DNA of 64,000 bases from Maritimibacter alkaliphilus. GTDB taxonomy: Bacteria > Pseudomonadota > Alphaproteobacteria > Rhodobacterales > Rhodobacteraceae. Numbering within the stretch: position 1 is the stretch's first letter; each line of letters starts with the position of its first letter. This document shows, one piece after another, positions 10,238 to 35,287 of the stretch. The position numbers and the translations under genes are program-made. The stretch is from NCBI RefSeq assembly GCF_019801605.1, contig NZ_JAHVIT010000002.1, forward strand, positions 1,426,001-1,490,000, read 5' to 3'. The notes below the pieces were generated by a model. That model was not told the DNA's origin. It saw only the letters and a list, made by a program, of their open reading frames with translations, and did no database searches.

Positions 10238-10262
10238 ATACATGCTATGTCATTGCATGTAT
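10238..10262. promoter_or_regulatory. Palindromic regulator site upstream of nirB (CATGC-N9-GCATG)
   Basis: Arms ATACATGCTATG and CATTGCATGTAT flank a single central T at 10250, with one mismatch over twelve pairs. The outer geometry ATGC-N9-GCAT equals that of the NsrR consensus (ATGY-N9-RCAT), but the inner AT-rich part of that consensus is missing. A site with matching arms and flanks lies upstream of cysG at 35157-35175. It is 228 bases from the nirB start, so a long leader follows. Confidence 0.6.
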
Positions 10263-10338
10263 CAATCAAGGTGGAAACGCTTCCACCCACCAGCCGCAAT
10301 GGCGCGGCCATTTCCGTCAAAACGCCCGTATCGGGCAG

Positions 10339-10354
10339 GCAGCAACGATGCTGC
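10339..10354 (+). ncRNA. Hexaloop hairpin in the nirB leader (ANTAR-target-like)
   Basis: Stem GCAGC/GCTGC closes a six-base loop AACGAT with A at position 1 and G at position 4, the pattern recognised by ANTAR antiterminator proteins such as NasT. A short hairpin (10324-10336) lies 2 bases upstream, as in the two-hairpin ANTAR target, but its loop is not a hexaloop. The 3' arm competes with a longer stem at 10352-10393. The cysG leader has the same core, AGC-AAnGnT-GCT. Confidence 0.4.
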
Positions 10355-10393
10355 AGCTTCGTACCGACAGACTCGGTTCGTGGGAAAGCTGTG
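10352..10393 (+). other. Long competing stem in the nirB leader
   Basis: TGCAGCTT (10352-10359) can pair with AAGCTGTG (10386-10393, two G-U pairs), enclosing a second stem ACCGA/TCGGT with a 5-base loop. It shares bases 10352-10354 with the hexaloop hairpin, so the two are exclusive. No good U-run follows directly (the nearest TTTT is about 16 bases on), so I do not call it a terminator. Confidence 0.3.
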
Positions 10394-10477
10394 CATCCAA
10401 GCTTCTGCTTTTCCTGACAGAAATCGCCGCGGCCCGGACATCCGGTTCGCTCAGCCCAAGCAGACCGGAGACCTCAC

Positions 10478-12946
10478 ATGTCCAGGCAGCGACTCGTCAT
10501 CATCGGCAACGGCATGGCCCCTGGCCGGATGCTGGAACACCTCTTCGAGGCCAGCGACGCTTACGACGTCACGATCTTCAACGCGGAATCCCGCGTGAAC
10601 TACGACCGCATCATGCTCTCCCCCGTGCTGTCGGGCGAGAAGAGCTTCGACGACATCGTGATCCACGACGACGCATGGTATGCCTCGCATGGCATCACCC
10701 TGCACCGGGGTCAGAAGGTCGTCTCCATCGACCGCGACTCGCAGACCGTCACCAGCGAGGGCGGCATCACCGCCGGTTATGACAAGCTGGTCATCGCCAC
10801 CGGCTCGAACCCCTTCATCATCCCCGTGCCCGGCCACAAGCTGCCCGGCGTGGTGGCCTACCGTGACCTCGACGACGTGCAGGCGATGAAACGCGCCGCG
10901 GCGCTCGGCGGCCGCGCGGTGGTCATCGGCGGCGGCCTGCTGGGCCTCGAAGCGGCGGCGGGCCTGAAGGCGCAGGGCATGGACGTGACCGTGCTGCACC
11001 TGATGCCCACCCTGATGGAGCGTCAGCTGGACCCGGCGGCAGGCTACCTGCTGCAGAAGGAACTGGAAGGCCGCGGGATCGAAGTGCGCTGCGGCGCCAA
11101 CACCAAGCAGATCCTCGGCGAGGCGCAGGTTGAAGGCGTCGAGCTGGAAGACGGCACCGTGATCGACGCCTCCTTGGTGGTCATGGCAGTCGGCATCCGC
11201 CCGAACGTGCAGCTGGCGCAGGAGGCCGGTCTCGAGGTCGGCCGTGGCATCGTCACCGGCACCGACATGAAAACCTCGGACGCCAACATCTACTCCGTCG
11301 GGGAATGCGCCGAGGTGGAGGGCCGGGTCTATGGCCTCGTCGCGCCGCTCTACACCATGGCCAAGGTGGCCGCCGCGCATCTGGCCGGCGCCTCGGACGC
11401 CGCCTTCGCCCATGCGGAAACACCCACCAAGCTGAAGGTCACCGGCGTGAACCTTTACTCGGTCGGCGAATTCGGCGACGGGCCGGAGCTGGAGGACGTG
11501 GTCCTGCGCGACGCCAAGCGCGGCACCTACAAGCGCGTGATCCTGAAGGACAACAAGGTCGTCGGTGCCGTGCTCTACGGCGATGTGGCCGATGGCATGT
11601 GGTACAACGAACTGCTGAAGTCCGCCGACTGTGTCGAGGCCATGCGCGAGACGCTGATCTTCGGTCAGGCGCATCAGGGCGGCGGCGTGGCCGCGGACCC
11701 GCTGGCGGCGATCTCCAACCTGTCGGACGACGCGGAGATCTGCGGCTGCAACGGCATTTGCAAGGGCCAGATCGTCAATGCGATCAAGGACAAGGGCCTG
11801 ACCTCGCTGGCCGAAGTCCGCGCCCACACCAAGGCCTCCGCCTCCTGCGGGACCTGCACCGGGCTGGTCGAGGGCGTCATGGCCCTGACCCTGGGCGATA
11901 CCTTTGCCAAGAAGGCCGAGGGCATGTGCGGCTGCACCGATCTGGGCCACGGCGACGTGCGCCGCCTGATCGTGGCCAAGGAACTGAAATCCATCTCCGC
12001 CGTGATGCAGGAACTGGAGTGGAAATCCTCGGGCGGCTGCGCCAAGTGCCGTCCGGCGCTGAACTACTACCTCCTGTCCGACTGGCCGGGCGAATACGTC
12101 GACGACCAGCAGTCGCGCTTCATCAACGAGCGCGTGCACGCGAACATCCAGAAGGACGGCACCTATTCCGTCGTTCCCCGGATGTGGGGCGGCATGACCA
12201 CTGCGGGTGAGCTGCGCGCCATCGCCAACGTGGTGGACAAGTTCAACATCCCCGACGTGAAGGTCACGGGCGGCCAGCGGATCGACCTGCTGGGCGTCAA
12301 GAAAGAGGACCTGCCAGCCGTCTGGGCCGATCTGAACGCCGCTGGCATGATCTCGGGCCACGCCTACTCCAAGGGGCTGCGCACGGTGAAGACCTGCGTC
12401 GGCTCCACCTGGTGCCGGTTCGGCACGCAGGACAGCACCGGCCTCGGCATCAAGCTCGAGAAGTTCATGTGGGGTTCATGGACGCCCGCCAAGGTGAAGC
12501 TGGCGGTCACCGGCTGCCCGCGCAACTGCGCCGAGGCGACCTGCAAGGACATCGGCGTGATCTGCGTCGATAGCGGTTACCAGATCGTCTACGGCGGTGC
12601 CGCCGGCCTGCACATCCAGGGCACGACCGAACTGGGCACCGTGAAGACCGAGGACGAGGTGATCGAGATCGCCGGCGCCATGACCCAGATGTACCGCGAG
12701 CAGGGCTTCTACCTCGAGCGGATTTACAAGTGGGCCGACCGGGTCGGCTACGACACCGTCAAATCCGTCATCTTCGACGATCTGGAGAGCCGCCGCGCCT
12801 ACTACGAGCGCTTCGTCCACTCGCAGCAATTCGCACAGGTCGACCCCTGGTCCGAGCGCGTCTCGGGCGTCGACAAGCACGAGTTCAACCCGATGGCCGT
12901 CTTCGGCCTGCCCAACGACACCACCGTCCAGGAGCCCGCAGAATGA
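10478..12946 (+). CDS. nirB: NAD(P)H nitrite reductase large subunit
   Basis: This 822-residue cytoplasmic enzyme reduces nitrite to ammonium with NirD. The N-terminal third is a pyridine-nucleotide/FAD reductase. BFD-like [2Fe-2S] segments follow (CGCNGICKG near residue 422, CGTCTG near 458, and a second repeat with CGC and CAKC around 483-520). The C-terminal sulfite/nitrite reductase domain has the siroheme-[4Fe-4S] cysteines C-x5-C (CVGSTWC, about 641) and C-x3-C (CPRNC, about 681). Length is typical. Its stop overlaps the nirD start (ATGA). It needs siroheme, made by CysG at 35359-36744. Confidence 0.96.
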   Translation: MSRQRLVIIGNGMAPGRMLEHLFEASDAYDVTIFNAESRVNYDRIMLSPVLSGEKSFDDIVIHDDAWYASHGITLHRGQKVVSIDRDSQTVTSEGGITAGYDKLVIATGSNPFIIPVPGHKLPGVVAYRDLDDVQAMKRAAALGGRAVVIGGGLLGLEAAAGLKAQGMDVTVLHLMPTLMERQLDPAAGYLLQKELEGRGIEVRCGANTKQILGEAQVEGVELEDGTVIDASLVVMAVGIRPNVQLAQEAGLEVGRGIVTGTDMKTSDANIYSVGECAEVEGRVYGLVAPLYTMAKVAAAHLAGASDAAFAHAETPTKLKVTGVNLYSVGEFGDGPELEDVVLRDAKRGTYKRVILKDNKVVGAVLYGDVADGMWYNELLKSADCVEAMRETLIFGQAHQGGGVAADPLAAISNLSDDAEICGCNGICKGQIVNAIKDKGLTSLAEVRAHTKASASCGTCTGLVEGVMALTLGDTFAKKAEGMCGCTDLGHGDVRRLIVAKELKSISAVMQELEWKSSGGCAKCRPALNYYLLSDWPGEYVDDQQSRFINERVHANIQKDGTYSVVPRMWGGMTTAGELRAIANVVDKFNIPDVKVTGGQRIDLLGVKKEDLPAVWADLNAAGMISGHAYSKGLRTVKTCVGSTWCRFGTQDSTGLGIKLEKFMWGSWTPAKVKLAVTGCPRNCAEATCKDIGVICVDSGYQIVYGGAAGLHIQGTTELGTVKTEDEVIEIAGAMTQMYREQGFYLERIYKWADRVGYDTVKSVIFDDLESRRAYYERFVHSQQFAQVDPWSERVSGVDKHEFNPMAVFGLPNDTTVQEPAE

Positions 12947-13320
12947 ACGCCAGATTCACCAGCCCCAACGCTTCGCTTCTCGAGGGCGGCCAGAACACCG
13001 ATCTCGACTGGCGCCTGATCGGCACCATCGACGACATCCCCGCCCAGGGGGCGCGCTGCGTGAAGAACGGCGAGACCACCATCGCCGTCTTCCGGACCGC
13101 GGACGACCGCATCTTCGCACTTGAAGACAAATGCCCGCATCGCAACGGGCCGCTCAGCCAGGGGATCGTGCATGACGGTTGCGTCACCTGCCCCCTGCAC
13201 AACTGGGTCATCTCGCTCGAAACCGGCACCGCGCAGGGTGCCGACGAGGGCCGGACTGCCTCCTTCCCCGTCCGCCTCAGCGGTCGGGACATCTACCTCA
13301 ATCTGAAACCTGGCGCCTGA
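12943..13320 (+). CDS. nirD: Nitrite reductase small subunit with intact Rieske motif
   Basis: This 125-residue Rieske-fold partner of NirB begins at the ATG that overlaps the nirB stop by 4 bases. Unlike the E. coli NirD, which has lost its cluster ligands, this one keeps a full C-x-H (CPH) and C-x2-H (CPLH) pair spaced by 16 residues, so it could bind a [2Fe-2S] cluster. That ligand set is seen directly; that the cluster is present and conducts electrons is inference. Confidence 0.93.
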   Translation: MNARFTSPNASLLEGGQNTDLDWRLIGTIDDIPAQGARCVKNGETTIAVFRTADDRIFALEDKCPHRNGPLSQGIVHDGCVTCPLHNWVISLETGTAQGADEGRTASFPVRLSGRDIYLNLKPGA

Positions 13321-13356
13321 TCTCGGGCCCGCACTCTCTCGAAAAGGACTACGAAC

Positions 13357-14196
13357 ATGTCGTATATCGCTCCGAAGGAATTCGCGGCCAAGATGGTCGA
13401 CGCCGGCGAATCCAAGATCTTCATGTCCACCAAGGACACCCTGATCCGCGCATACATGGCGGGTGCCATCCTGGCGCTTGCCGCGGCCTTCGCCGTGACC
13501 ATCGCGGTCAACACCGGCAACTTCCTCGTCGCCTCTCTGCTCTTCCCGGTCGGCTTCTGCATGCTGTACCTGATGGGCTTCGACCTGCTGACCGGCGTCT
13601 TCACGCTGGCCCCGCTGGCCGTTATCGCCAAGCGTCCGGGCTGCACCTGGAAAGGCGTCCTCCGGAACTGGGGCCTCGTGTTCTGCGGCAACTTCGCAGG
13701 CGCCATGACCACCGCCATCCTGATGGCCGTCGTCTTCACCACCGGCTTCTCGACGGAACCGAACGCGGTTGGCCAGAAGATCGGGAGCATCGGTGAAGCC
13801 CGGACGCTCGGCTACGCCGCAGCCGGTGGGGCCGGCCTGCTGACGGTCTTCGTCCGCGCCGTGCTGTGCAACTGGATGGTCTCCACCGGTGTGGTCGCCG
13901 CGATGATGTCCTCCTCCACCGGCGGCAAGATCATGGCCATGTGGATGCCGATCCTCGTCTTCTTCTACCTCGGCTTCGAGCACTCGATCGTGAACATGTT
14001 CCTGTTCCCCTCGGGCATCATGCTGGGCGGTCAGTTCACCTGGTTCGACTACTTCGCCTACAACGAGATCCCCGTTGTCCTTGGCAACCTCGTCGGCGGC
14101 CTGACCTTCGTGGGCGGCATGATCTACGCCACGCACTTCCGGGAATCGCCGAAGCGCAACGCAGGCAAGGACGTGTCCGGCCTGCCGGCAGAGTAA
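13357..14196 (+). CDS. nirC: Formate/nitrite channel (FNT family)
   Basis: This 279-residue integral membrane protein has the six-helix FNT pattern with internal repeat (GAILALAAAFAVTIAVNTGN and a central RAVLCNWMVSTGV segment). It starts 36 bases after nirD and ends just before an intrinsic terminator, so it closes the nirBD transcript. Its place makes nitrite import or export the likely role. The symbol is given by context, since FocA-type formate channels share the fold. Confidence 0.85.
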   Translation: MSYIAPKEFAAKMVDAGESKIFMSTKDTLIRAYMAGAILALAAAFAVTIAVNTGNFLVASLLFPVGFCMLYLMGFDLLTGVFTLAPLAVIAKRPGCTWKGVLRNWGLVFCGNFAGAMTTAILMAVVFTTGFSTEPNAVGQKIGSIGEARTLGYAAAGGAGLLTVFVRAVLCNWMVSTGVVAAMMSSSTGGKIMAMWMPILVFFYLGFEHSIVNMFLFPSGIMLGGQFTWFDYFAYNEIPVVLGNLVGGLTFVGGMIYATHFRESPKRNAGKDVSGLPAE

Positions 14197-14208
14197 TCTC
14201 CCCTCCTT

Positions 14209-14237
14209 GGCCCCGCTTCGGCGGGGCCTCTTTTCTT
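14209..14237 (+). terminator. Intrinsic terminator of the nirBDC operon
   Basis: A perfect 8-base-pair stem (GGCCCCGC and GCGGGGCC) closes a TTCG tetraloop and is followed by TCTTTTCTTC. It starts 12 bases after the channel stop codon and ends 17 bases before the kinase-phosphatase start, so read-through into that gene is possible. Confidence 0.85.
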
Positions 14238-14253
14238 CACCGGAGCCGATCCC

Positions 14254-15978
14254 ATGCCAAAGGATACCGTTGCCCGCCCGTGCCTCACGGTGACGCTCGG
14301 CCAGTATTCCGGCGCGGGGCGCAAGCCGGAGAACCAGGATTTTCACGGTGCGCTGATCCCCTCTGGCAGCCCGCTGGCGTTGAAGGGGATCACCCTGGCC
14401 GTGGCCGACGGGATCTCTTCCAGCGCGGTCAGCGGGCAGGCGGCAGAGACCGCCGTGAAGGCCCTGCTGGACGATTACTACGCCACCCCCGACGCCTGGA
14501 CGACGCGCACCGCCGGGACCCGCGTCATCGCCGCCACCAACGCCTGGCTGCATGGGCAGAACACCTCCGTCGCCGATGTGAACGCGGGCCATGTCTGCAC
14601 CCTGTCGGCGCTGATCCTGAAGGGGCGCGAGGGCCATGTACTGCACGTGGGCGACAGCCGCGTGGCGCGGCTCTCGGGCGCCAGCCTCGAGGCGCTGACC
14701 GAGGATCACCGGCTGGTCCTCTCCCAGGCCGAGAACTACCTGGGCCGCGCCATGGGCGCCGCCCGCGAGGTCGAGGTCGACTATCGCCGCGTGAGCCTGG
14801 GCGAGGGCGATGTCTTCGTACTGACCACCGACGGCGTGCATGAGTTCATCACTGCCCGAGACGTGACCGCGGCCCTCGCCGCGCCGGACCTCGACACCGC
14901 CGCCCGGCAGCTGGCCGATGTGGCGCTGGAGCGGGGCAGCGACGACAACCTGACGGTGCAACTGCTGCGGGTCGAAAGCCTGCCCGAGGCCGGGGCCGAG
15001 CTGTCGCTGGACGCCGCCCGCCTGCCGGTGCCGCCGCTGCCGAAGGCGGGGGAGGTGATTGACGGCTTCCGCATCCTGCGCCCGCTGCACCAGACGGCCC
15101 GCAGCCACGTCTACCTTGCCGAGGACGGGCAGGGACAGCGCGTGGCGCTGAAGATCCCCGCCAGCGAGATGGCGCTGGACACCGATTACCTGCGCCGCTT
15201 CGTGCTGGAGGAATGGATCGCCCGCCGTCTTGCCTCGGCCCATGTGCTGCGCGCGGCAGAGGCGCCGGCACAGCGCAGCGCGCTCTACGTGGTCACCGAG
15301 TACGTGGAGGGCCAGACCCTGCGCGACTGGATGGCCGACCACCCGCGGCGGGATCTGGCGCAGGTGCGCGACATCGTCACCCAGATCGCCACCGGCCTGC
15401 GGGCGTTTCACCGCCGCGAGATGCGGCATCAGGATTTGCGGCCCGAGAACGTGATGATCGACCGGGAGGGAACGGTGAAGATCATCGACTTCGGCTCTGC
15501 CTCTGTTGCGGGGGTGGAGGAAGCCGCGCCGGACCTGTTGGGGGACATGCCCGGCACCTATCAGTACACCGCGCCGGAATACCTCTCGGGGCAGGGGGCG
15601 ACGTGGCGGGCGGATCAATACGCCCTCGGTGTCATCGCCTACGAGATGCTGACCGGGCGGCTGCCCTACGGGGCGCAGGTGGCCCGCGTGCGCAATGCGC
15701 GCGATCAGGCCCGCCTCAGCTACGTGCCCGCGCGGGACGCCGAAAACGGGCTGCCCGACTGGATGGATGTCGCGCTGAAACGCGCGGTGCATCCCGATCC
15801 GGCCCGCCGCTACGAGGCGCTTTCCGAATTCGTCGCGGACCTGCGCCGCCCCGGCGCCAGCTACCGGGCGGGGCGGCATGTGCCGCTGGCGGAACGCAAC
15901 CCGGTCCGCTTCTGGCAGGCGGTCTCGGCCGGGCTGGCGCTGCTCTGCGTCGTGCTCATGACCCGACTGGCGGGCTGA
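14254..15978 (+). CDS. PP2C protein phosphatase / Ser-Thr protein kinase fusion with C-terminal membrane anchor
   Basis: This 574-residue protein joins two opposing activities. Residues about 1-250 are a PP2C phosphatase (VADGISSS, VGDSRVARL, TDGVHEF, GSDDNLTVQLL carry metal-binding aspartates). Residues about 268-540 are a Hanks-type kinase: K300 in VALK, HQDLRPEN with D394, DFG at 412 and an APE segment. The glycine-rich loop is degenerate (LHQTARSHVYLAED). A hydrophobic helix near the C-terminus (FWQAVSAGLALLCVVLM) should anchor it in the membrane. Such fusions occur beside nirBD/nas genes, so a role in nitrate/nitrite metabolism is inferred; the target is unknown. Confidence 0.88.
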   Translation: MPKDTVARPCLTVTLGQYSGAGRKPENQDFHGALIPSGSPLALKGITLAVADGISSSAVSGQAAETAVKALLDDYYATPDAWTTRTAGTRVIAATNAWLHGQNTSVADVNAGHVCTLSALILKGREGHVLHVGDSRVARLSGASLEALTEDHRLVLSQAENYLGRAMGAAREVEVDYRRVSLGEGDVFVLTTDGVHEFITARDVTAALAAPDLDTAARQLADVALERGSDDNLTVQLLRVESLPEAGAELSLDAARLPVPPLPKAGEVIDGFRILRPLHQTARSHVYLAEDGQGQRVALKIPASEMALDTDYLRRFVLEEWIARRLASAHVLRAAEAPAQRSALYVVTEYVEGQTLRDWMADHPRRDLAQVRDIVTQIATGLRAFHRREMRHQDLRPENVMIDREGTVKIIDFGSASVAGVEEAAPDLLGDMPGTYQYTAPEYLSGQGATWRADQYALGVIAYEMLTGRLPYGAQVARVRNARDQARLSYVPARDAENGLPDWMDVALKRAVHPDPARRYEALSEFVADLRRPGASYRAGRHVPLAERNPVRFWQAVSAGLALLCVVLMTRLAG

Positions 15979-16008
15979 TCCGCCACCAACATCGCAGGAG
16001 GACAAGAG

Positions 16009-16476
16009 ATGAAAGACCTGGCACAGGCCGAAACCCTGACCCGAGAGGACGTCACCGCGCTGATCCTCGCCTCCAAGAAGGCGGCACTGCAGACCTGGGA
16101 AGGCATCGCCGAGGCCATCGGCATGTCCCCGGTCTGGACCCACTCGGCCTGCATGGGGATGAACGCCTTCCCGCGCGACAAGGCGGATGCCCTCGTCGCG
16201 CTGCTGGACCTGCCGGAGGCGGCGGCCGACCTGCTGGTCGAAAGCCCCACCAAGATCTGGGAGCAGACCGTCCCGACCGATCCCTGCATCTATCGCCTCT
16301 ACGAGATCGTCGGCGTCTACGGCCCCACGATCAAGGCGCTGATCCACGAGGGCTTCGGCGACGGGATCATGTCGGCCATCGACTTCGACATGCAGGTCAC
16401 CCGCGTGCCGCACGAGAAGGGCGACCGGGTGAAGATCGAGATGTCGGGCAAGTACCTGAGCTACAACGCCTGGTAA
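16009..16476 (+). CDS. cynS: Cyanate hydratase (cyanase)
   Basis: This 155-residue enzyme turns cyanate and bicarbonate into ammonia and carbon dioxide. It has the N-terminal helical domain and the C-terminal catalytic region with the conserved Arg, Glu and Ser (IYRLYEIVGVYGPTIKALI, then GIMSAIDF). Length is normal for cyanases. AGGAGG lies 8 bases before the start. It stands 30 bases after the kinase-phosphatase and extends the nitrogen-acquisition theme. No dedicated cyanate transporter is nearby. Confidence 0.95.
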   Translation: MKDLAQAETLTREDVTALILASKKAALQTWEGIAEAIGMSPVWTHSACMGMNAFPRDKADALVALLDLPEAAADLLVESPTKIWEQTVPTDPCIYRLYEIVGVYGPTIKALIHEGFGDGIMSAIDFDMQVTRVPHEKGDRVKIEMSGKYLSYNAW

Positions 16477-16488
16477 AAGCCCCGACGC

Positions 16489-16528
16489 GACCGCCGGCGG
16501 ATGGGGCCCGCCGGCGGTCCATTTGTTT
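16489..16528. terminator. Strong hairpin between convergent cynS and histidine kinase genes
   Basis: A perfect 12-base-pair stem (16489-16500 and 16508-16519) has a 7-base loop and is followed on the plus strand by CATTTGTTTT. It sits 12 bases past the cynS stop and 30 bases past the kinase stop, so it may serve both directions, better for cynS. Confidence 0.7.
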
Positions 16529-16557
16529 TCCGCGACCTGCCGCCGCGCGGGGGTGGG

Positions 16558-18537
16558 TCAATAGGCGTCGTCTTCCAGCGCCAGATCGGCCTCTGGCAGG
16601 AAGATGGTGAAACGGCTGCCCGCGCCGGGCGTGCTGTCCACCTCGATCCGCCCGCCCGCACGGCTCACCAGCGTCTGGCTGATGGAGAGGCCGAGGCCCG
16701 TGCCCTGCGCCTGCTTGGTGGTGAAGAACGGGTGGAAGATGCGCTGCATCGTCTCCGCTTCCATCCCGGTGCCGGTGTCCTCCACCGTGATCTCCACCCC
16801 GCCCGGGACCTCGGTCACGCCCAGTGTCAGCACGCCGCCCTCGGGCATGGCGTGCACGGCGTTGAGGATCAGGTTCACCATGATCTGCTGCAACTCCGTC
16901 CGGGCGATCAGCACGCGGCGGGTGCTTTCCAGCGCGGTGCGCAGCTCCACGCCCGCGCTTTCCGTCTGGTGCCGCGTCAGCACGAGGCAGTCGCGCACCA
17001 CCTCGTCGGGGCGGATCGCGTTGGCCGCACCGGAATATTCCTCGGGCTTGGCGAATTGCAGCAGCTTCGAAACGATGGCCCCGATGCGATAGACTTGGTC
17101 GTCGATCAGGTCGAACTCGGTCTTCACCGCATCGGCGTGGTCGTCCAGCAGGGCGCGGGCCACGTCCAGGTTGCCCTGGATCACGGCGATCGGGTTGTTG
17201 ATCTCATGGGCGACCGAGGCGGTGATCTCGCCCACGGCGGCCAGCTTCTCGGACAGGATCAGCCGCTCGGTCGTCTGTTCCAGCTTCTCGTTGGCGGCGC
17301 GCAGGTCGCGGGTGCGCTCCTCCACCTTCTGTTCAAGGCTCTCGGCCCAATCCCTGAGCTGGCGGTCGCGCTCCTGCACCTGATCCAGCAGGTCGTCGAG
17401 GTGGCCCGCCACCTGCGCGATCTCGCCGCTGTCGTCCTGCGGGCCATTGCGGGCCTCCATCTCGCCGGCCTCGACCCGGGCCATGGTCTGGGTCATCCGT
17501 TCCAGCGGACGGAAGATGCGCCCCGCCCATTGCAGGAAGATCGGCACCGAAAGCGCGGCGATCAGCAGGAAGAGCACGGTGACCGTCAGGACGGAGTTCG
17601 CCTTGGCCTGCAGGAACGGCGCCTCGAGAAACCCGACGTAGAGCATGCCGACGCGTTCGCCGAAGCTGTCGGTGATCGGCTGGTAGGCCGAGATGTACCA
17701 GTCGTTCACCACGAAGGCCCGATCGCGCCAGACCTGACCCTCGCCCAGCACCCGCTCACGCACCTCGGCGGAGACCCGGGTGCCGAGGGCGCGGACATTC
17801 TCGAAGAGACGCACGTTGGTCGAGACGCGCACATCGTCGAGGAAGAGCGTCGCGGTGCCCTGCGAGCCTTCGGGCAGGCTGCGGTCGCGGTAGACGAGGC
17901 CATTGATCGTGTCGATGAAATCGAGGTTCCGGTTCAGCAGTCGCCCGCCCACCAGCGCGCCCATGCGTCCGCCGGGCATCCGCACCGGGGCGGCGGAGTG
18001 GACGATCATGCCGCGGTCCTCGACGGGGCGGTCCGTGGGCACGGCATTGCGGGTGGGCACCATGGGGATCGCCGCGCGCCGGGCAAGGCCGGGAGCGAGC
18101 GCCTCCAGCGAGGGCGCGGGCAGCACGTCCACCGCGCTGCGGGCGTCGCCGTCGAGGGCGGCGCGGATCACCGGCCAGTCGCGGGGGGCGAAGCCGCGGG
18201 CGGTGCGGCTGCCGTCGGTGACATAGAGGAAATCGAGCGAGAGACGCCGCTTCTCGGCCTCCAGCAGGGCGGTGAAGGCCTCCGGATCGTCGAGGGCGTC
18301 GTGCAGGGCGACGGAGTGGGCGATCGCATCGAGCCGTTCGCCCGAGACGTCCACCAGCCGCCCGAGGTACTGTTCGGCAATGGTCAGGTCGCCGTTCACC
18401 TTGGTGATCAGGATATCGTCGATCCGGCCGGACCAGCGGATCATGGCACTGCCCAGCATCATGGGCAGCAGCACCAGCATCGGCAGCAGCGCAATGACCA
18501 GAAGCCGGACGCGCAGGGAGCGGAAGAGACGGTCCAC
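16558..18537 (-). CDS. Membrane sensor histidine kinase with periplasmic Cache-like domain
   Basis: This 659-residue protein begins at a GTG 3 bases after the response-regulator stop. It has an N-terminal transmembrane helix (about residues 12-32), a large periplasmic Cache-like sensor region, a second helix (about 310-335), HAMP, a coiled linker, HisKA with H444 (SVAHEINNPIAVIQ) and a complete ATPase domain (N-box VNLILNAVHAM, VEDTGTGM, GTGLGLSIS). Catalytic motifs are intact, so it should autophosphorylate. Its neighbour partner lacks the usual acceptor aspartate, so the phosphate may go elsewhere. The signal is unknown. Confidence 0.88.
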   Translation of the reverse strand: MDRLFRSLRVRLLVIALLPMLVLLPMMLGSAMIRWSGRIDDILITKVNGDLTIAEQYLGRLVDVSGERLDAIAHSVALHDALDDPEAFTALLEAEKRRLSLDFLYVTDGSRTARGFAPRDWPVIRAALDGDARSAVDVLPAPSLEALAPGLARRAAIPMVPTRNAVPTDRPVEDRGMIVHSAAPVRMPGGRMGALVGGRLLNRNLDFIDTINGLVYRDRSLPEGSQGTATLFLDDVRVSTNVRLFENVRALGTRVSAEVRERVLGEGQVWRDRAFVVNDWYISAYQPITDSFGERVGMLYVGFLEAPFLQAKANSVLTVTVLFLLIAALSVPIFLQWAGRIFRPLERMTQTMARVEAGEMEARNGPQDDSGEIAQVAGHLDDLLDQVQERDRQLRDWAESLEQKVEERTRDLRAANEKLEQTTERLILSEKLAAVGEITASVAHEINNPIAVIQGNLDVARALLDDHADAVKTEFDLIDDQVYRIGAIVSKLLQFAKPEEYSGAANAIRPDEVVRDCLVLTRHQTESAGVELRTALESTRRVLIARTELQQIMVNLILNAVHAMPEGGVLTLGVTEVPGGVEITVEDTGTGMEAETMQRIFHPFFTTKQAQGTGLGLSISQTLVSRAGGRIEVDSTPGAGSRFTIFLPEADLALEDDAY

Positions 18538-18540
18538 CTG

Positions 18541-19695: not shown

Positions 19696-19734
19696 GATGC
19701 TCCTCCATCTTCCCGATCCGCATACTGGCAAAGA

Positions 19735-19760
19735 AAAAGGGGGCCTTACAGCCCCCTTTT
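19735..19760 (-). terminator. Intrinsic terminator of the cyo-surf1 operon
   Basis: Read on the minus strand, a GGGGGC/GCCCCC stem with A and T flanks (arms 19735-19744 and 19751-19760) has a 6-base loop and ends in CCTTTTTCTTT. It begins 24 bases after the surf1 stop codon. Confidence 0.85.
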
Positions 19761-19784
19761 GCGTTCGTCCGGGTATGCGCGTTC

Positions 19785-25399: not shown

Positions 25400-25453
25400 C
25401 ATGATCTTCAAGCGATGGGGCAAGCGATGGGCCCGCCCCGTCAGTCGGCCAAG

Positions 25454-27658: not shown

Positions 27659-27762
27659 GTTCTCCAAGCCTTTCTTGAGCCTGCAACGGCTCTATCCGAC
27701 CCTGTCGCTCAGGTCTACTGTCTGGGGGAGGGGATGCGACAATTCCCACGTAAAATGGCCGA

Positions 27763-28554: not shown

Positions 28555-29594
28555 GAGGCGTCCTTTCGGGCGGGTCCGCGGCCCTGACGGCGGATTTGCC
28601 AGATCAGCACCGGCGCGCCGCAAAGCGCGGTGAAGATGCCCACCGGCAGCTGTGTCGGCGCGAAGGCGAGGCGCGCGGCCAGATCGGCGGCGGTGAGGAA
28701 GGTGGCGCCGAGCAGGGCGCTCAGCAGCAGGGCAGGGCCGCCGCCCGCCAACCGTCGCGCCACCGGGCCCGAGACGAAGGCCACGAAGGCGACCGGCCCC
28801 GCGACATAGACCGCAAGCGCGGTGGCCAGCACGCCCGTCAGCGCGGCGGCGACCCGCAGGGCGGTCAGCGGCAGGCCAAGAGAGGCCGCCACCTCGGCCC
28901 CGAGCGCCAGCCGCGCCATGCCGCGCTCCAGCAGGGCGGCGGCGAGGAGAAGGGCCGTGATCACGGGCAGGCCGAGGGTGAGTTCGGTGGGCCCCACGGC
29001 GTTGAGCGAACCCGCAAGCCAGCGGTAGGCGGCCTCGGCCTCCATCCCGGTGGCACGGGTCAGCAGATAATCCACGGCGGCATAGAGCATCAGGCCGATG
29101 CCCACGCCCACGAGGACGAAGCGCATCGGCTGCAAGCCGTCGCGCCATGCAAGGGCTGTGATCACAAGGGCCGTCAGCGCCACGCCCGCCACTGCGCCAC
29201 CTGCGACGGCAAGGCCGGTGGCGCCCATGAGGACGACGCTGGCGACCGCACCGAGGGCGGCGCCCGCGCTGAAGCCGATCAGGTCGGGCGAGGCGAGGTC
29301 ATTGCGGCTCAGCGTCTGGAAGAGCGCGCCCGCAAGGCCAAAGCCCGCCCCGGCGATCAGCGCCCCGGCGATCCGGGGCAGGCGCAGGCCGGTGACGATG
29401 AACTCCGCCATCGGGTCGGGGTCCGCCCCGAAGACACCCGCGATCTGCGCCAGCGTCAGGGGATAGTCGCCATGCATCATCCCCCAGAGCGCGAGGCCCG
29501 CCAGAAACGCCAGCAGCAGCGCCGCCGTCCGCAGCGCGGCCACCCGCAGGCGGAGCGAGAGGACGGGGGTCCGGAGGGTGAGGCTGCGGCTCAT
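28551..29594 (-). CDS. Iron-siderophore ABC transporter permease (FecCD family), second
   Basis: This 347-residue inner-membrane protein of the FecCD/BtuC family has about ten helices. Family motifs include LRLPRIAGALIAGAGFGLAG near the N-terminus and GPVAFVAFVSGPVARRL near the C-terminus. It overlaps both neighbours by 4 bases and pairs with the next permease as a heterodimeric channel. Confidence 0.9.
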   Translation of the reverse strand: MSRSLTLRTPVLSLRLRVAALRTAALLLAFLAGLALWGMMHGDYPLTLAQIAGVFGADPDPMAEFIVTGLRLPRIAGALIAGAGFGLAGALFQTLSRNDLASPDLIGFSAGAALGAVASVVLMGATGLAVAGGAVAGVALTALVITALAWRDGLQPMRFVLVGVGIGLMLYAAVDYLLTRATGMEAEAAYRWLAGSLNAVGPTELTLGLPVITALLLAAALLERGMARLALGAEVAASLGLPLTALRVAAALTGVLATALAVYVAGPVAFVAFVSGPVARRLAGGGPALLLSALLGATFLTAADLAARLAFAPTQLPVGIFTALCGAPVLIWQIRRQGRGPARKDAS

Positions 29595-30652
29595 CCGCGG
29601 GGCCTCCGCCGGGCGACGGCGACGAAGACCGGCCCGCCGAGCAGCGCCATCATGATGCCTGCCTGCACCTCGCCCGGGGGCAGGATCACCCGGCCCGCCG
29701 TATCCGCCAGCAGCAGGACGGCGGGGCCGATCAACAGGGTTGCGGGCAGCGCCCAGACGACGCGCGGCCCCACGAGGGCCCGGGCGAGATGCGGCGTGAC
29801 GAGGCCGAGGAAGCCGATGGGGCCTGCGAGCGCCGTGGCCGCGCCCGCCAGCACCACGGCGGCGGCGAGGGCCAGCAGCCGGGTCCGGGCGGGATGGGCG
29901 CCAAGCGCACCGGCCGTCTCCTCGCCAAGGGCGAGGCTGTCGAGGCTGCGCAGGGAGAGGACCGCCAGCAGCAGGCCTGCGAGGAAGAACGGCGCAAGCT
30001 CCGCCAGTTGCGCGGCGCGGGTGGCGCCGCCGCTGGCCAGCGAGCCGACCATCCAGAAGCGGTAGACCTCCAGCGTTTCCTGCGAGGACAGCAGTATTGC
30101 CGTGGTGCCTGCCCCGGCGAGCGCCGCGACGGCGACCCCGGCCAGCACCAGCCGTGCGGGGCCGGAGTGCAGCGGGCCGCTGAGCCCCAGCGGGACGACC
30201 ACGGCGGTGACGGCAGCCGCGCCCGCCAGCGAAGCCCAGCCAAGCGCCACGGTGCCGCCGAGCCCGAAGGCCCAGACCGCGATCACCACGGCCAGCCCGG
30301 CGCCGCTGGCCATGCCGAGGATGCCGGGATCGGCCAGCGGGTTGCGGGTGACGGATTGCATCATCAGCCCGGCGGTCGAGAGCGCCGCCCCCACCGCCAG
30401 CCCGGTCACGAGGCGCGGCAGGCGCAGCTCGCGGATCACCGTGGCCTCGGGCGAGAGGACGGTGGGATCGGTCAGCGCCGCCCAGACCTGTGCCGGCGTG
30501 ATCGCCCGGGCGCCGATCATCAGCGCGGCGAGGCAGGCCAGCAGGAGGAGCAGGCAGGCCAGGGCCAGCCGGGCGAGGCGGCGCTGGCGCGCGACGCGGC
30601 GCAGGTCGCGGGGCGCGGGAAGCGCCCCGGCGCTGAGCCCGCCGGTCGTCAT
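29591..30652 (-). CDS. Iron-siderophore ABC transporter permease (FecCD family), first
   Basis: This 353-residue inner-membrane protein shows the FecCD motifs LRLPRLVTGLAVGAALSTAG and GPIGFLGLVTPHLARALVG. About ten helices are predicted from its hydrophobic blocks. It overlaps the binding-protein gene and the second permease by 4 bases each, so the transport genes form one translationally coupled unit. Confidence 0.9.
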   Translation of the reverse strand: MTTGGLSAGALPAPRDLRRVARQRRLARLALACLLLLLACLAALMIGARAITPAQVWAALTDPTVLSPEATVIRELRLPRLVTGLAVGAALSTAGLMMQSVTRNPLADPGILGMASGAGLAVVIAVWAFGLGGTVALGWASLAGAAAVTAVVVPLGLSGPLHSGPARLVLAGVAVAALAGAGTTAILLSSQETLEVYRFWMVGSLASGGATRAAQLAELAPFFLAGLLLAVLSLRSLDSLALGEETAGALGAHPARTRLLALAAAVVLAGAATALAGPIGFLGLVTPHLARALVGPRVVWALPATLLIGPAVLLLADTAGRVILPPGEVQAGIMMALLGGPVFVAVARRRPRG

Positions 30653-31629
30653 GGCGCGAGGCCGGCCTCGACGCTGGAGGGCACCGGCGTGGCAGGGTCG
30701 CCGTCCAGCGCGGCCTCGATCATCGGCACCATCCGGTCCAGGACGTAAGGAAGGCTCAGCAGGCTGGCGTGGGAGAAGGCCGAGGCGAGCAGCGCATCGA
30801 CGGCCACCTCGCGGCCCTCGGTGTGGGCGCGCAATTCGGGCCGCAGGGCGAGGTCACGGATCGCCGCGACGTTCGCGGGGCTCACGAACCAGAGCAGCAG
30901 GTCCGCATCCAGCGGCGTGAGGTCCTCGTTCGAGAGCGTCATGGCAAAGGCCTCCGCGCCCGAGACGTCATCGACCGCCTGCGGCGTGCGGAAGCCGAGG
31001 CTGTCGAGGAACATCGAACGGATGTCCTTGGAGGTATAGGCGCCGGGGGCGTCATGGTAGAGGTAGGCGACCGTGGCCGTGGCGCCCTGCCAGTCGGGAT
31101 GGCTGGCGCGCAACGTGGCGGCGCGGTCCTCGATGGCCTTGACCTGCGCCTCGGCTTCGGCGGCGTGGCCGGTGATGAGGCCGGTGGTCCGGGCCAGCAA
31201 CTGCCAAGGCATGCCGTAGTCCTCGTAACCCTCCAGCGGGGGCACGACGGGGGCGATGCGGCTGAGCATCTCGTATTGCTGCCGCGAGATGCCGGACCAC
31301 ATCGCCTCGATCAGGTCGGGCTTGAGCGCGGCGATCTGCTCGAAGTTGATGTCGCCTTTCAGCAGCGTGGGCCGCGCCTCGCCAAGCGCGTCCTGTGCCC
31401 AGGGCCAGACGCCGCTTGGCTGGTTGCCGAACCAGTCGCGCAGGCCCACCGGCGTCACGCCGATGGCCAGCAGGTTGTCGTGGTTCAGAAAGGACAGCGT
31501 GACCACGCGCTGCGGCTGCGCCGGGATCTCGGTGGTGCCGTACTTGTGGGTGACGGTGAGGGGGAAGTCCTGCGCGGCCGCGGCAAGGGGGGCCAGCAGC
31601 AGGGCGAGAAGGGCAAGAATGCGGGGCAT
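30649..31629 (-). CDS. Iron-siderophore periplasmic binding protein
   Basis: This 326-residue protein starts with a Sec signal (MPRILALLALLLAPLAAAAQ) and is a FecB/FhuD-like class III binding protein (VVTLSFLNHDNLLAIGVTPVG, then ALKPDLIEAMW). It captures the ferric siderophore delivered by the TonB receptor. No lipobox is seen, so it is probably free in the periplasm. It lies 62 bases after the receptor gene, with a hairpin (31658-31685) between. Confidence 0.88.
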   Translation of the reverse strand: MPRILALLALLLAPLAAAAQDFPLTVTHKYGTTEIPAQPQRVVTLSFLNHDNLLAIGVTPVGLRDWFGNQPSGVWPWAQDALGEARPTLLKGDINFEQIAALKPDLIEAMWSGISRQQYEMLSRIAPVVPPLEGYEDYGMPWQLLARTTGLITGHAAEAEAQVKAIEDRAATLRASHPDWQGATATVAYLYHDAPGAYTSKDIRSMFLDSLGFRTPQAVDDVSGAEAFAMTLSNEDLTPLDADLLLWFVSPANVAAIRDLALRPELRAHTEGREVAVDALLASAFSHASLLSLPYVLDRMVPMIEAALDGDPATPVPSSVEAGLAP

Positions 31630-31657
31630 CTGGGTCTCCGGGGTGAGCGGAAGGAGA

Positions 31658-31685
31658 GGGCGCCCGCCGGCAGGGGCGGACGCCC
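31658..31685 (-). other. Hairpin between TonB receptor and binding-protein genes
   Basis: Two 5-base-pair stems (GGGCG/CGCCC and CCGCC/GGCGG) separated by one C-A mismatch enclose a 6-base loop. No U-run follows on the minus strand. It may attenuate transcription or set the ratio between receptor and importer. Confidence 0.4.
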
Positions 31686-31691
31686 GGAGCG

Positions 31692-33779
31692 TCAGAACTT
31701 CGTTGTCAGGGTCAGGGCCGCGGTCCGGCCTTCGCCGATGTAGCAGGCGCCCGAGCCGCAGGAGTTGACGTAGTACTCATCGGTCAGGTTGCGCACGGTG
31801 AAGGCCGCGTCGAACCGCTCCGTCTGGTAGCCGACCATGGCATCGTAGAGCGTGTAGGACGGGGTCTTCTGGGCGTCCGACCCATCCCAGGCCGCGCCGA
31901 CGTAACGCACGCCCGCGCCGAAGCGCCAGCCGGGCAGGGCGTCGGGGGTGTAGTTCACCCAGAGCGAGCCGAAGTTCTCGGGCACGGTGGCGATGCGGTA
32001 GCCGTCCGAATTCTCGGTATCGAGCCAGGAGAAGCCGAAATCGACCGAGACCTCGCCGAAGTCATGCTTGGCGCCCAGTTCGAGCCCCTTCACGTTCGCC
32101 TCGCCGGTCTGGATCTGGAAGCCCGGGTTGGTCGGATCGGTGATGGCGAGGTTCGACTTGGTCAGGTCGAAGGCCGCGACGGTCAGGATCGAGCGGGTGC
32201 CGGGCATCTGGTACTTCAGGCCCAGTTCCCACTGCTTGCCTTCGGTCGGCTCGAACTGGTTGCCCTCGGCATCGGTCCCGGCCACTTCCTGGGTGAAGCT
32301 CTCGGCGTAGGAGAGGTAGGGGCTCATCCCGTTCGGCGCTTCGTAGAGGATGGCAAAGCTCTTGGACCAGGCGTCGTCCTTCGCGCTCACCGTGTTGTCG
32401 GTGAAGGTGCCCGAGGTCTCGCCGGTCTCGATGTGGGCCCACCGCAGGCCGAGGTCCACGTGCAGCCGCTCGCCGAAGGTGGCGCGGTTCGTGGCATAGA
32501 CGCCGTATTCCTCGACCGTGGAGGCGGGGTAATCCGTCTGGTCGATGTCGGGATAGCCCGCGTAGACGGGGTTGTACGGGTCGATCGGCGCGATCTGTTC
32601 GCCGTAGCCATAGTCGCTGTCATAGAGCGCGCGGGAGTAGGAGGCCCCCAGCAGGGTCTTCATCCGCACGCCGTTCAGCGCCCATTGGCCCTTCAGGTTC
32701 ACGTCCGCGACCGTGTCTTCCAGCGTGTTGTGCGCGGAATAGAAGGTGCGGTTGATCGTGCCGTCCGCGTTGTAGCGGTAGTTGTCGTAGTTGTCGTAGG
32801 CCCACCAGGCGTGGTTGTAGTCCGACTCCGACTCGTGGTGGCGCAGGCGCGCGTCCAGGGTCCAGCCGTTCTCGAAATCATGTTCGACCATCGCGGTGAC
32901 CGATGTCTGCTCGGTGTTCAGCTTGTCGAAGCCCGGCTCGCCCACGAAGAGGCTGTCGGGCAGGCGCCCGCCGTAGGGCGAGTCGTAGAGCGTGCCCCAG
33001 GCCGAGGCGAACTGGATCAGCGGCTGGGTTTCGGTCTTCTGGTAGTTGAACAGCAGCTTGACCGTGGTCCGGTCCGTCGCGCGCCACGCGATCGAGGGCG
33101 CGAAGGCGAGGCTGTTGTCCTGCGTGTGATCGACCTGCGTGTCGCTGTCGCGCCAGAGCCCGACGATGCGGTAGGACAGCCGCCCGTCCGAGAGCGTGTC
33201 GGAGAAGTCGACGCCGATCTGCTTGCGGTTATGGGACCCGTACTGGAGCTGGACGATATTGTCGGCCGGCTGACCTGCGATCTTGGAGGTCGTGTCCACC
33301 ACGCCGCCGACCGATCCGTTGCCATAGAGCGCCGAGGCCGGGCCCTTCAGCGCCGCGACGCTGTCCAGCAGGAAGGTCTCGGGCTTCGTATCGTTGTAGT
33401 AGCCGAACCGCGATTGCAGCCCGTCATGGTAGGTCGAGGGGGCGAAGCCCCGGATGTTCGACCAGTCGGAGCGGTTGTCGAGGCCCCACTGGCCCGCCAC
33501 CACGCCCGGCGCATATTGCAGCGCCTGTTCGACGCTGGTCGCGCCGCGTTCGTTGATCTGCTCCTGCGTGATCACCGAGACCGACCGCGGCGTGGCCATG
33601 ATCGTCTCGCCGGTCTTGGTCACCCCGGCGGTGTCCTGCGGAATGGAGGGTCCGAAGAAACCTTCGCCCGCGGTGTCCCCCGACTCGACGGTGATGGTTT
33701 CAAGATTGATGGTCTCCTGCGCGGCCACGGCCTGCGCAGAGACCAGGAACGACAAGAGCGTCGCCTGTCCCAGCTTCAC
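31692..33779 (-). CDS. TonB-dependent siderophore receptor
   Basis: This 695-residue outer-membrane protein takes up a ferric siderophore with TonB energy. A signal peptide (VKLGQATLLSFLVSAQAVAAQ) leads into the plug domain (SVSVITQEQINERGATSVEQ, GPASALYGNGSVGG), then a 22-strand barrel ending in Phe (LTLTTKF). It resembles the FhuA/FpvA-like siderophore receptors. I chose the GTG at 33779, preceded by GGGGAG at 8 bases; the frame runs on to 33863, but that extension would read through the promoter. A TGA-N9-TCA box covers the probable -35 element. Confidence 0.92.
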   Translation of the reverse strand: MKLGQATLLSFLVSAQAVAAQETINLETITVESGDTAGEGFFGPSIPQDTAGVTKTGETIMATPRSVSVITQEQINERGATSVEQALQYAPGVVAGQWGLDNRSDWSNIRGFAPSTYHDGLQSRFGYYNDTKPETFLLDSVAALKGPASALYGNGSVGGVVDTTSKIAGQPADNIVQLQYGSHNRKQIGVDFSDTLSDGRLSYRIVGLWRDSDTQVDHTQDNSLAFAPSIAWRATDRTTVKLLFNYQKTETQPLIQFASAWGTLYDSPYGGRLPDSLFVGEPGFDKLNTEQTSVTAMVEHDFENGWTLDARLRHHESESDYNHAWWAYDNYDNYRYNADGTINRTFYSAHNTLEDTVADVNLKGQWALNGVRMKTLLGASYSRALYDSDYGYGEQIAPIDPYNPVYAGYPDIDQTDYPASTVEEYGVYATNRATFGERLHVDLGLRWAHIETGETSGTFTDNTVSAKDDAWSKSFAILYEAPNGMSPYLSYAESFTQEVAGTDAEGNQFEPTEGKQWELGLKYQMPGTRSILTVAAFDLTKSNLAITDPTNPGFQIQTGEANVKGLELGAKHDFGEVSVDFGFSWLDTENSDGYRIATVPENFGSLWVNYTPDALPGWRFGAGVRYVGAAWDGSDAQKTPSYTLYDAMVGYQTERFDAAFTVRNLTDEYYVNSCGSGACYIGEGRTAALTLTTKF

Positions 33780-33847
33780 TGTGTTTCTCCCCTGAGAGTG
33801 TCTTACCTGGCGGGATGGCTGGGTGGTACAGGGGGCGGTAGAGTAGC

Positions 33848-33862
33848 TGACTGTAATAGTCA
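33848..33862 (-). promoter_or_regulatory. Iron-responsive box candidate (TGA-N9-TCA) for the TonB receptor
   Basis: The dyad TGACTATTACAGTCA (minus strand) fits TGA-N9-TCA, the IRO / iron-Rhodo-box pattern bound by RirA-type regulators in alphaproteobacteria. It overlaps TTGACT, a good -35 hexamer, so a bound repressor would block the promoter. It also covers the stop codon of the upstream gene. A second box of the same form precedes that gene. Confidence 0.55.
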
Positions 33863-34942
33863 AGTATCGGCGGGGCTGCGGGTCCAGTAGCCTGCCACGT
33901 AATGTTGCCCGCGGGGCACGGCCCAGTCCGACCGCACCAGTTTGCGCAGCCGTTGGGCATCCGATGTCTCGCCGGCGAACCAGATGTGAGTCGCGGGGCC
34001 CCGTGCTGCGGCGGCCTCCGCCAGCGCGGCGGCGGCGCTTTCGCCCCGGCTGCGCAGCAGCAGCGTGAACCGGTCGATATGGCGCGCGGGCAGGCAGTCC
34101 GCCGCCTCGGGGTCCGCCAGTTCCAGCAGGATCAGGGGCGCGTCGCCATAGGCGGCGGCATCGAGGCTGCGCACCATGGCGGGCAGGGCGGTTTCGTCCC
34201 CGGCCATGATCAGGTCTGCCGTGGGCGCCAGCCAGCCGCCACCGGGCCCGGTCAGGCCGATGGTCCGCCGCGCCTCGGTGCCCGCCACCAGCCCCTCGGC
34301 CCAGTGACAGGTCGGGCCGTTGCCGTGGGTATAGACGTCGAACTCCAGCCAGCCCGCCTCGATGTCGAGCGCGATGATCGTGTAGGCCGGCGTATGCAGC
34401 GCGTCCGGGCCCTCGGGCCAGACAGTGCGGGCGTCGGCCCCCACGATCGGCCAGACCGGCACGCGGCCCGGGCGGGGCAGGCAGAGCCGGAAGTGCAGCC
34501 CGGTCTCCGCCAGCGGCGCCAGCCCGGTGCCCTTGAGGCGAATGCGGATGTAGTCGCGCGACAGGCGCCGCGCCTCCGCCACCTCCAGCAGGTGGAAGTT
34601 GCGCGGGTGCACGCCCACGGCCCGCGTCGCGTCATCGGACCAGCTGAGCTCGTCGATGGTCAGCCCTTCGGCATGGTGCTGAAGGAAGTGCAGGACCATG
34701 TCGCGCATCACCTGCAACATGCCCTCGTCCGCGGCGTTCAGATGCAACTCCAGCCCGCGCTCTGCCCCCTGCGCCGCCATCCGGCCATAGCCGGTGTCGC
34801 AGCTGAGTGCCTGTGCATCGCCCGACATCTGAAGGCCATGTTCCTCGCCCGCGTGGCGCAGGGCGGCCAGCAGGGCGTGGCCGTCCGGGGTGCGGCAGGT
34901 GGCGCTGAGATCGAAGGAAGACTGGGGCGACTGCGCGTTCAT
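33860..34942 (-). CDS. Siderophore-interacting protein with N-terminal DUF2218 domain
   Basis: This 360-residue protein has an N-terminal DUF2218-like domain (about residues 1-105, with GMLQVMRDMVLHFLQHHA) fused to a FAD-binding siderophore-interacting reductase (ViuB/SIP type, about 115-360; RDYIRIRLKGTG, GPGGGWLAPTADLIMAGDETALPA). It likely reduces and releases iron from the imported ferric siderophore in the cytoplasm. I chose the ATG at 34942 with AAAGGA upstream. It is the first gene of the iron block, 80 bases before the receptor. Confidence 0.88.
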   Translation of the reverse strand: MNAQSPQSSFDLSATCRTPDGHALLAALRHAGEEHGLQMSGDAQALSCDTGYGRMAAQGAERGLELHLNAADEGMLQVMRDMVLHFLQHHAEGLTIDELSWSDDATRAVGVHPRNFHLLEVAEARRLSRDYIRIRLKGTGLAPLAETGLHFRLCLPRPGRVPVWPIVGADARTVWPEGPDALHTPAYTIIALDIEAGWLEFDVYTHGNGPTCHWAEGLVAGTEARRTIGLTGPGGGWLAPTADLIMAGDETALPAMVRSLDAAAYGDAPLILLELADPEAADCLPARHIDRFTLLLRSRGESAAAALAEAAAARGPATHIWFAGETSDAQRLRKLVRSDWAVPRGQHYVAGYWTRSPADT

Positions 34943-35045
34943 GGCCGGGTCCTTTCGCAGAGGGAAGAGCAAACGGGGGCGGCACCCCCATGTACGCTTG
35001 CCTGATCGGGACCGGGCTGGCTGTCGCTCTCCTACAATTTCCGAC

Positions 35046-35060
35046 TGATTTGGTCAATCA
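35046..35060 (-). promoter_or_regulatory. Iron-responsive box candidate (TGA-N9-TCA) for the siderophore-interacting gene
   Basis: TGATTGACCAAATCA (minus strand) fits TGA-N9-TCA and contains TTGACC, a -35 hexamer followed at 17 bases by TAGGAG. It lies 104 bases before the start codon at 34942. The box-over-minus-35 layout is the same as at the TonB receptor promoter, which supports joint iron control. Confidence 0.55.
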
Positions 35061-35156
35061 TTGCGCTGCGCCAACGGCGGACCCCCGCCAGACGCCCCCG
35101 CACCGCTCTGCACCGGCCCGTATTGGCCTCGCGGCCCTGCGCTGTTGCTGAAAATC

Positions 35157-35175
35157 CATGCATCCTGGGTGCATG
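35157..35175. promoter_or_regulatory. Palindromic regulator site upstream of cysG (CATGC-N9-GCATG)
   Basis: CATGC at 35157-35161 and GCATG at 35171-35175 flank nine bases. The left flank GAAAATC and the right flank TAT match the nirB site (GAAAATA and TAT) almost exactly, while the nine central bases differ. The centre lies 193 bases before the cysG start. The repeat at two promoters of one pathway argues for a shared regulator. Confidence 0.6.
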
Positions 35176-35287
35176 TATGTCTGTCCGCGCTGTCGTTGCG
35201 TCAATTTCCTTGCGCGACTCGCCCTCATCGGCACAGATGGACCCAGCGGCAACGGCGCCGCCGATTTCCCTACATGACGGGACCTAT

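Follow-up and report, generated by a model that had tools for sequence, protein, structure and literature searches.

The Rrf2-family regulator NsrR recognises the consensus gATGyAT-N5-ATrCATc, with a change at G4/C16 in Neisseria, and a single alphaproteobacterial nsrR was noted in 2005 (PMC1274295, excerpted text). The same excerpt places the nsrR of Rhodobacter capsulatus E1F1, a member of the Rhodobacterales, beside hcp in a nitrate-assimilation (nas) gene cluster, with hcp as the predicted target and nirB and cysG unnamed as targets. Paracoccus denitrificans has two NsrR homologues, one of them beside hmp (passages of PMC5588039 and PMC5339346); this gene is named nsrR1 in the former, while a table of PMC9409073 lists it (Pden_1690) as rirA, up under low iron and with the putative Fur box TGCAATCAGGATGCAT. 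Passages of PMC5424462 and PMC4724949 describe NasT and the nasA leader, and an excerpt of PMC8151001 reports that nitrite reductase and siroheme genes are induced by nitric oxide (NO) in Bacillus cereus. Here, a window of 64,000 nucleotides from the 4.91-Mb genome of Maritimibacter alkaliphilus (contig NZ_JAHVIT010000002.1, positions 1,426,001 to 1,490,000) is analysed, in which nirB, encoding the large subunit of a siroheme nitrite reductase, and cysG, encoding siroheme synthase, are preceded by the same palindrome, and an Rrf2-family regulator gene (rrf2) lies next to nirB. The palindrome is real and, by comparative evidence, an operator, and it is likely that such palindromes are operators of the Rrf2 protein controlling nirBDC, cysG and rrf2, which together with NasT-type RNA leaders would give control under two conditions.

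The shared element, GAAAAT, one variable base, CATGC, nine bases (N9) and GCATG followed by TAT, is found at 10234-10262 and 35150-35178, as an earlier note on this DNA had claimed, and the nine central bases mostly differ, as also stated there, agreeing at two of nine positions. Part of this "variable" centre is itself symmetric, the 25-mers being palindromic at 22/25 (nirB) and 20/25 (cysG) positions. The predicted nirB operator, ATACATGC-TATGTCATT-GCATGTAT (10238..10262), is at -240 to -216 from the gene start (10478), with sites at the same place in G159, the closest relative in the genome set (NirB identity 97%), in genome G166 and in Alloyangia. The predicted cysG operator, ATCCATGC-ATCCTGGGT-GCATGTAT (35154..35178), is at -205 to -181 from the start of cysG (35359), with same-place sites in G159, genome G162 and Chachezhania. 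At both genes an RNA leader sits between the site and the gene start. The bare core CATGC-N9-GCATG occurs exactly twice in the window, but it is not rare enough to convince alone, having eight window matches with at most one mismatch (shuffles average 4.9, and 13 of 100 reach this count) and 17 places in the whole genome (reversed control, 0). The longer form AATnCATGC-N9-GCATGTAT has exactly two places in the genome, the nirB and cysG sites; this pattern was picked after the sites had been seen, and the case therefore depends on the comparative tests. Rfam at gathering thresholds gave no match within the window, and a consensus scan for promoter-like sequences matched neither the nirB nor the cysG site. 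Readings of the palindrome as a LysR T-N11-A, NtrC or sigma-54 site were dropped by eye, their consensus sequences having the wrong spacing.

The comparison used a genus set of 22 genomes and a family set of 149, the own genome being counted in each. The exact element did not hold as a conserved motif, since CATGC-N9-GCATGTAT was found in only nine of the 149 family genomes, own one included; ATGC-N9-GCATGTAT was found in 14 of the 22 genus genomes. Among the exact-element places listed, the regulon sites identified were the own nirB, the own cysG and the G159 nirB sites only, the neighbours of the other places being unchecked. The near-identical flanks claimed earlier were retained for the window, where both sites have GAAAAT, but GAAAAT is outside the motif common to the relatives, in which the third base of the half-site is T oftener than G. 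In the same way, the scan proposed in the earlier note, upstream of nirB, cysG and nas genes of relatives, failed for the exact form and succeeded for a relaxed one, AAnCAT(T/G)C-N9-G(A/C)ATGnTT, which in Pseudooceanicola, Salipiger, Alloyangia and Chachezhania stands at corresponding positions upstream of nirB/nirD/nirC and cysG/cobA. Sites of the same geometry before rrf2, nirB/nirD/nirC and cysG/cobA in related genera thus bear out a shared operator, rather than copied DNA, at nirB and cysG. A strict pattern, WWWNATKC-N9-GMATNWWW, occurs three times in the own genome, at rrf2, at nirB and at a DUF1326 gene, the own cysG site failing it; in eight genomes it has 20 sites, 12 of them at rrf2/nir/cysG loci, and its reversed control has none in all eight. 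In G162 the strict pattern is matched exactly twice, in front of cysG and in front of nirC.

The gene rrf2 (9470..9955, plus strand) has a predicted operator of its own, AATAATTCCCAAAATGGGAATTATT (9425..9449; like the other two operators it is given without a strand), an 11-3-11 inverted repeat with 8-N9-8 geometry and ATTC..GAAT arms, which had been missed in the earlier note. It lies about 45 bp before rrf2 and shares bases with the region's single promoter-like match (9411-9439); in G159 its outer arms are kept, the inner bases are changed and the DNA further upstream has diverged. Orthologues of rrf2 were found in Salipiger, Chachezhania, Alloyangia, Maritimibacter and a metagenome-assembled genome (loci L151-L158), and six of these eight near orthologue loci (L151, L152, L153, L155, L156 and L157) have a site 43-62 bp before rrf2 and another after it, several of all these sites being training sites. 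The gene is followed by nirB (L151, L157), by nirD and a short nirB piece (L153), by a partial nirD and then nirC (L156) or by nirC (L152), and the order in genome G154 is cysG-rrf2-nirC. Because rrf2 adjoins nirB, nirD, nirC or cysG in relatives, the Rrf2 protein is likely the regulator, and this part of the earlier proposal stands. Homologues that are 48-54% identical in Paracoccus, Sphingomonas and Roseomonas have CATGC/GCAT-type sites upstream of their own genes; for the P. denitrificans homologue (48%), this is AAACATGC-N9-GCATGTTT, between it and a divergent hmp-like gene, and the putative Fur box TGCAATCAGGATGCAT overlaps the palindrome of locus L160.

Sites were scored with a matrix trained on nine rrf2-adjacent sites, which include the own nirB and the Alloyangia nirB sites and no cysG site; an alternative scan used AT(G/T)C-N9-G(A/C)AT with at least six symmetric arm positions. 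Upstream of nirB, the site is at -240 in the own genome, at -241 in G159, at -245 in G166 (15.9, untrained) and at about -239 in Alloyangia (the training site). The G159 site is identical to the own one, but the whole leader is near-identical there, which makes it weak evidence. Another type of nirB (61-65% identical) has no site in 17 of 17 loci, nor have two half-length loci, the best score being 1.1. Salipiger and G162 have sites before nirC/nirD. From 43 cysG/cobA loci examined, five score at least 12, namely the own one (13.0), G159 (12.5), G162 (14.1), Chachezhania (19.0) and cobA of S. pentaromativorans (14.6), and eight are at p 0.01 or better over 100 simple shuffles, the less convincing among these eight being L087 (11.1), L090 (9.0) and L251 (11.1). 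An untrained site, also missed in the earlier note, follows a nasS-like open reading frame in five of nine main ANTAR loci (own 19.6, G162 17.9, Alloyangia 16.2, S. pentaromativorans 16.0, G159 13.1), while four further ANTAR loci score 2.7 or less. In the own genome this site is before the predicted nas genes at C2:1139-1150 kb, outside the window; nasS and the nas operon are named from their location next to the ANTAR gene and from a NirB-like half that is 52% identical. In G166, a Pseudooceanicola genome, a 30.9 site lies about 155 bp upstream of a broken cysG piece, followed by broken rrf2 pieces and an intact nirB. These broken pieces are at about 6438-7259 of L326 (G166:C1:76000-88000), directly before an intact nirB-nirD-nirC-kinase row, and the arrangement may be an assembly error.

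The identity of the Rrf2 protein was examined with family models and known structures. The Rrf2 domain (PF02082) matches with E 1.1e-29 (103.7 bits, cut-off 30), and the best solved-structure match is NsrR of Streptomyces coelicolor (chain 5n07, E 2.1e-15). Asp8, a cluster ligand in NsrR, and three cysteines are present in 17/17 aligned sequences, spaced C-x2-C-x5-C in 15 of them, the window's protein included, and C-x5-C-x5-C in two, S. coelicolor NsrR and Methylobacterium. The NCBIfam models for NsrR (NF008240, 93.8 bits, cut-off 182) and for RirA (NF008886, 100.7 bits, cut-off 193) both fail. The earlier description of the protein as an NsrR-like member of Rrf2 was therefore kept: it is taken to work like NsrR and is not given that name. 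The outer AT(G/T)C-N9-G(C/A)AT of the sites fits the NsrR consensus, the T variant fits the change at G4/C16 of Neisseria (PMC1274295, excerpted text), and autoregulation is predicted here too from the sites. The NsrR geometry noted earlier thus stands for the outer ATKC-N9-GMAT, whereas the inner AT-rich bases are not conserved, being flat over 28 collected sites, which were partly selected with the matrix. The predicted targets also differ from hmp and hcp, for which no search was made, being instead assimilatory nitrite reduction, siroheme synthesis and nitrite transport. The likeness to R. capsulatus E1F1, where an NsrR-type gene is among nitrate-assimilation genes, is drawn from the published description.

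A RirA-like sensor of iron or iron-sulphur status, sparing iron by restricting siroheme and the iron-sulphur nitrite reductase instead of sensing NO, is an unlikely identity for this Rrf2 protein but one with points in its favour: RirA is the best equivalog model, slightly above NsrR, a siderophore-interacting reductase gene is divergent from cysG, and the table of PMC9409073 gives the P. denitrificans homologue as rirA with its increase under low iron. Both scores are nevertheless under their cut-offs, the best solved relative is NsrR, and an hmp-like gene runs divergently from the Paracoccus homologue, which carries the name nsrR1 in the passage of PMC5588039. The predicted targets are not iron uptake genes either. 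The RirA box is TGA-N9-TCA, which the window sites (ATTC/ATGC-N9-GAAT/GCAT) do not match.

The main addition to the earlier note is the NasT-type leaders. Leaders recognised by NasT have two hairpins, with hexaloops that bear A at position 1 and G at position 4 (A1/G4). On the plus strand, the nirB leader has hairpin 1, GCCGC-AATGGC-GCGGC (10293..10308), and hairpin 2, GCAGC-AACGAT-GCTGC (10339..10354), and directly after the operator a further hairpin with an A1/G4 hexaloop, GGTGGA-AACGCT-TCCACC (10270..10287), which is present in the own genome and G159. The cysG leader, on the same strand, has hairpin 1, GCGGC-AACGGC-GCCGC (35246..35261), and hairpin 2, GAGC-AAAGCT-GCTC (35288..35301), the second overlapping the stem of a predicted terminator that runs into TTTTT (35292..35334; fold z -1.70, 14 of 200 shuffles as stable); the two are mutually exclusive in the fold, and a consensus terminator scan gave no plus-strand terminator at cysG. 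At least two A1/G4 hairpins are present in 14 of 15 examined leaders and one in the other, where shuffles expect 0.04-0.29; one of the 15, a Maritimibacter nirB leader, has no operator. In the leader alignment 99.2% of cells pair, its segments having been preselected with the hairpin finder, and double-sided changes are seen at three pairs, all in hairpin 1 (11 of 500 shuffles have as many; slid controls, 0-1), with none in hairpin 2. An RNA model (R1) adds little to the alignment, since 12 of its 15 matches in seven genomes are the sequences it was built from and three are weak (E 0.05-0.09), and the own nas leader is absent from its matches, the scoring having covered the best 150 candidates per genome. 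The own genome has one ANTAR protein (PF03861, E 1.1e-20), the predicted product of nasT, with nasS (named by position) at its side. As in the NasS-NasT system of P. denitrificans, where a two-hairpin leader is upstream of assimilation genes (nasA) and nasT and nasS are adjacent (PMC5424462, relevant passages), the leaders here precede assimilation genes, but cysG and a separate nirBDC operon have them too, both with a predicted DNA operator farther upstream.

Full-length cysG orthologues of the genus (15 of 19 loci, the four shorter ones being excluded) have at least one A1/G4 hairpin at the expected place in 15/15 and both in 7/15, and a clear operator in only three; six cysG loci outside the genus have both hairpins in three cases and none at the expected place in three, and coding DNA has 0.22 such hairpins per 400 bases. 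Because of this difference between hairpin and operator, the leader looks older and wider than the operator, which would be a younger layer. The same numbers could mean that the palindromes are chance or parts of promoters and that the NasT leaders alone co-regulate nirB and cysG, and the weaker cysG palindrome of G159 (14/25 positions symmetric) would agree with that. This is highly improbable in view of the position-matched recurrence across genera and of a strict pattern whose reversed control is zero. Sites also stand before rrf2, where no leader is shown, the other type of nirB lacks them in all of its 17 full loci, and the cysG half-sites of the own genome and G159 have survived where the flanks on either side have diverged.

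Several results weigh against operators of the adjacent Rrf2 protein combined with NasT-type leaders. L154 and L158 have rrf2 but no site scoring at least 12; in G162, a genome that is 66% complete, sites are present and a search at E 1e-20 or better found no rrf2; and in G154, cysG is directly before rrf2 without an operator (-2.5), while the site upstream of nirC is weak (11.7). To the few clear operators among the genus cysG orthologues are added the four main ANTAR loci without a post-nasS site of at least 13 (G154 10.7, the other three 4.1 to 6.8) and the eight strict sites out of 20 that fall outside rrf2/nir/cysG loci. The nirB leaders lack a TTTTT run, and the own one folds stably (z -4.17) with neither hairpin 1 nor an evident terminator. 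Finally, the own nirB site is an ATGC variant, as is that of cysG (ATGC..GCAT), whereas the site of rrf2 itself is ATTC..GAAT; when left out of the training set, the nirB site drops to 5.8, below an unrelated place in the window (10.8), a low score explained by the T type of the remaining training sites.

These last points, together with the absence of a found rrf2 in G162 and with other Rrf2 copies in the own genome, one of them 68% identical, could favour palindromes that belong to another regulator, the adjacent Rrf2 protein reading only its own ATTC-type site. Such a division is improbable, given that 10 of the 28 collected sites combine one T-type and one G-type half, among them the site of rrf2 itself in S. 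pentaromativorans and in L156, that the Alloyangia nirB site is of the ATTC type at the same distance, and that near the 68% paralogue there is just a divergent site (AAAGATTCCGTTTTCATGAAAGCAT, 14.1). The proposed link between the T and G types rests on these mixed sites and on those of Paracoccus, Sphingomonas and Roseomonas. The paralogue itself (G000:C2:152453-152881, L231) is near genes for an Mrp-type antiporter and a FAD-oxidoreductase.

Among the strict sites elsewhere, the palindrome AATTATTCACGATTCGTGAATAAAT (C2:689555-689579; L283:1501-1525) is directly before the DUF1326 gene and has a near-identical counterpart in G159; its longer inner palindrome suggests another regulator. In G318, a strict site (L281:1501-1525) has a gene for a GGACT-domain protein on one side and a different Rrf2 gene (37% identical) on the other, which hints that other Rrf2 proteins may read similar half-sites.

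Of the genes in question, all on the plus strand, nirB (10478..12946; TIGR02374, 872.8 bits, cut-off 578.35) is followed by nirD for the Rieske-type small subunit (12943..13320), nirC for a formate/nitrite transporter (13357..14196) and a gene for a fusion of PP2C phosphatase and Ser/Thr kinase (14254..15978), and cysG (35359..36744) is assigned by NF007922 (506.3 bits, cut-off 400). The fusion gene also comes after nirC in G166, G154, L153, L156 and L157. The siderophore-interacting reductase gene (33860-34972) shares its upstream region with the divergent cysG, and the cysG operator could act on it too.

Based on these observations, it is proposed that the adjacent Rrf2 regulator, which probably holds an iron-sulphur cluster, most likely represses its own gene, nirBDC and cysG, and probably the nas genes too. 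NO derived from nitrite, or loss of the cluster, would disable the protein and open the promoters, and the transcript would then enter the NasT-type leader, where it would terminate unless nitrate or nitrite had freed the antiterminator NasT. The nitrite reductase and its siroheme cofactor would thus be produced together, under two conditions. A more extended version has slightly less than an even chance as a whole: in Rhodobacterales, a separate Rrf2 lineage, which the curated models assign to neither NsrR nor RirA, would read half-sites with T and G interchangeable at one position, ignoring the nine central bases, and would have been superimposed on an older NasT regulon as an AND gate for assimilatory nitrite use, in which the promoter gate responds to iron-sulphur status or NO, the leader gate responds to nitrate or nitrite, and nitrite reductase, cofactor synthase, nitrite transport and nas genes are gated.

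The open-licence full text in PubMed Central, as far as excerpted, gave no description of this regulon or of a pairing of NsrR with NasT, and the excerpts of PMC12774639 and PMC4344238 have nothing on an rrf2/nirB/cysG regulon. If the proposal is true, one compact regulon links a siroheme enzyme, the supply of its cofactor and the import of nitrite, with an Rrf2 switch at the DNA level and a NasT switch at the RNA level paired on the same transcripts. Natural sites with interchangeable half-sites would be useful to dissect how Rrf2 proteins choose their DNA, and in marine alphaproteobacteria control of the NsrR type would reach beyond NO detoxification to the assimilation of nitrite.

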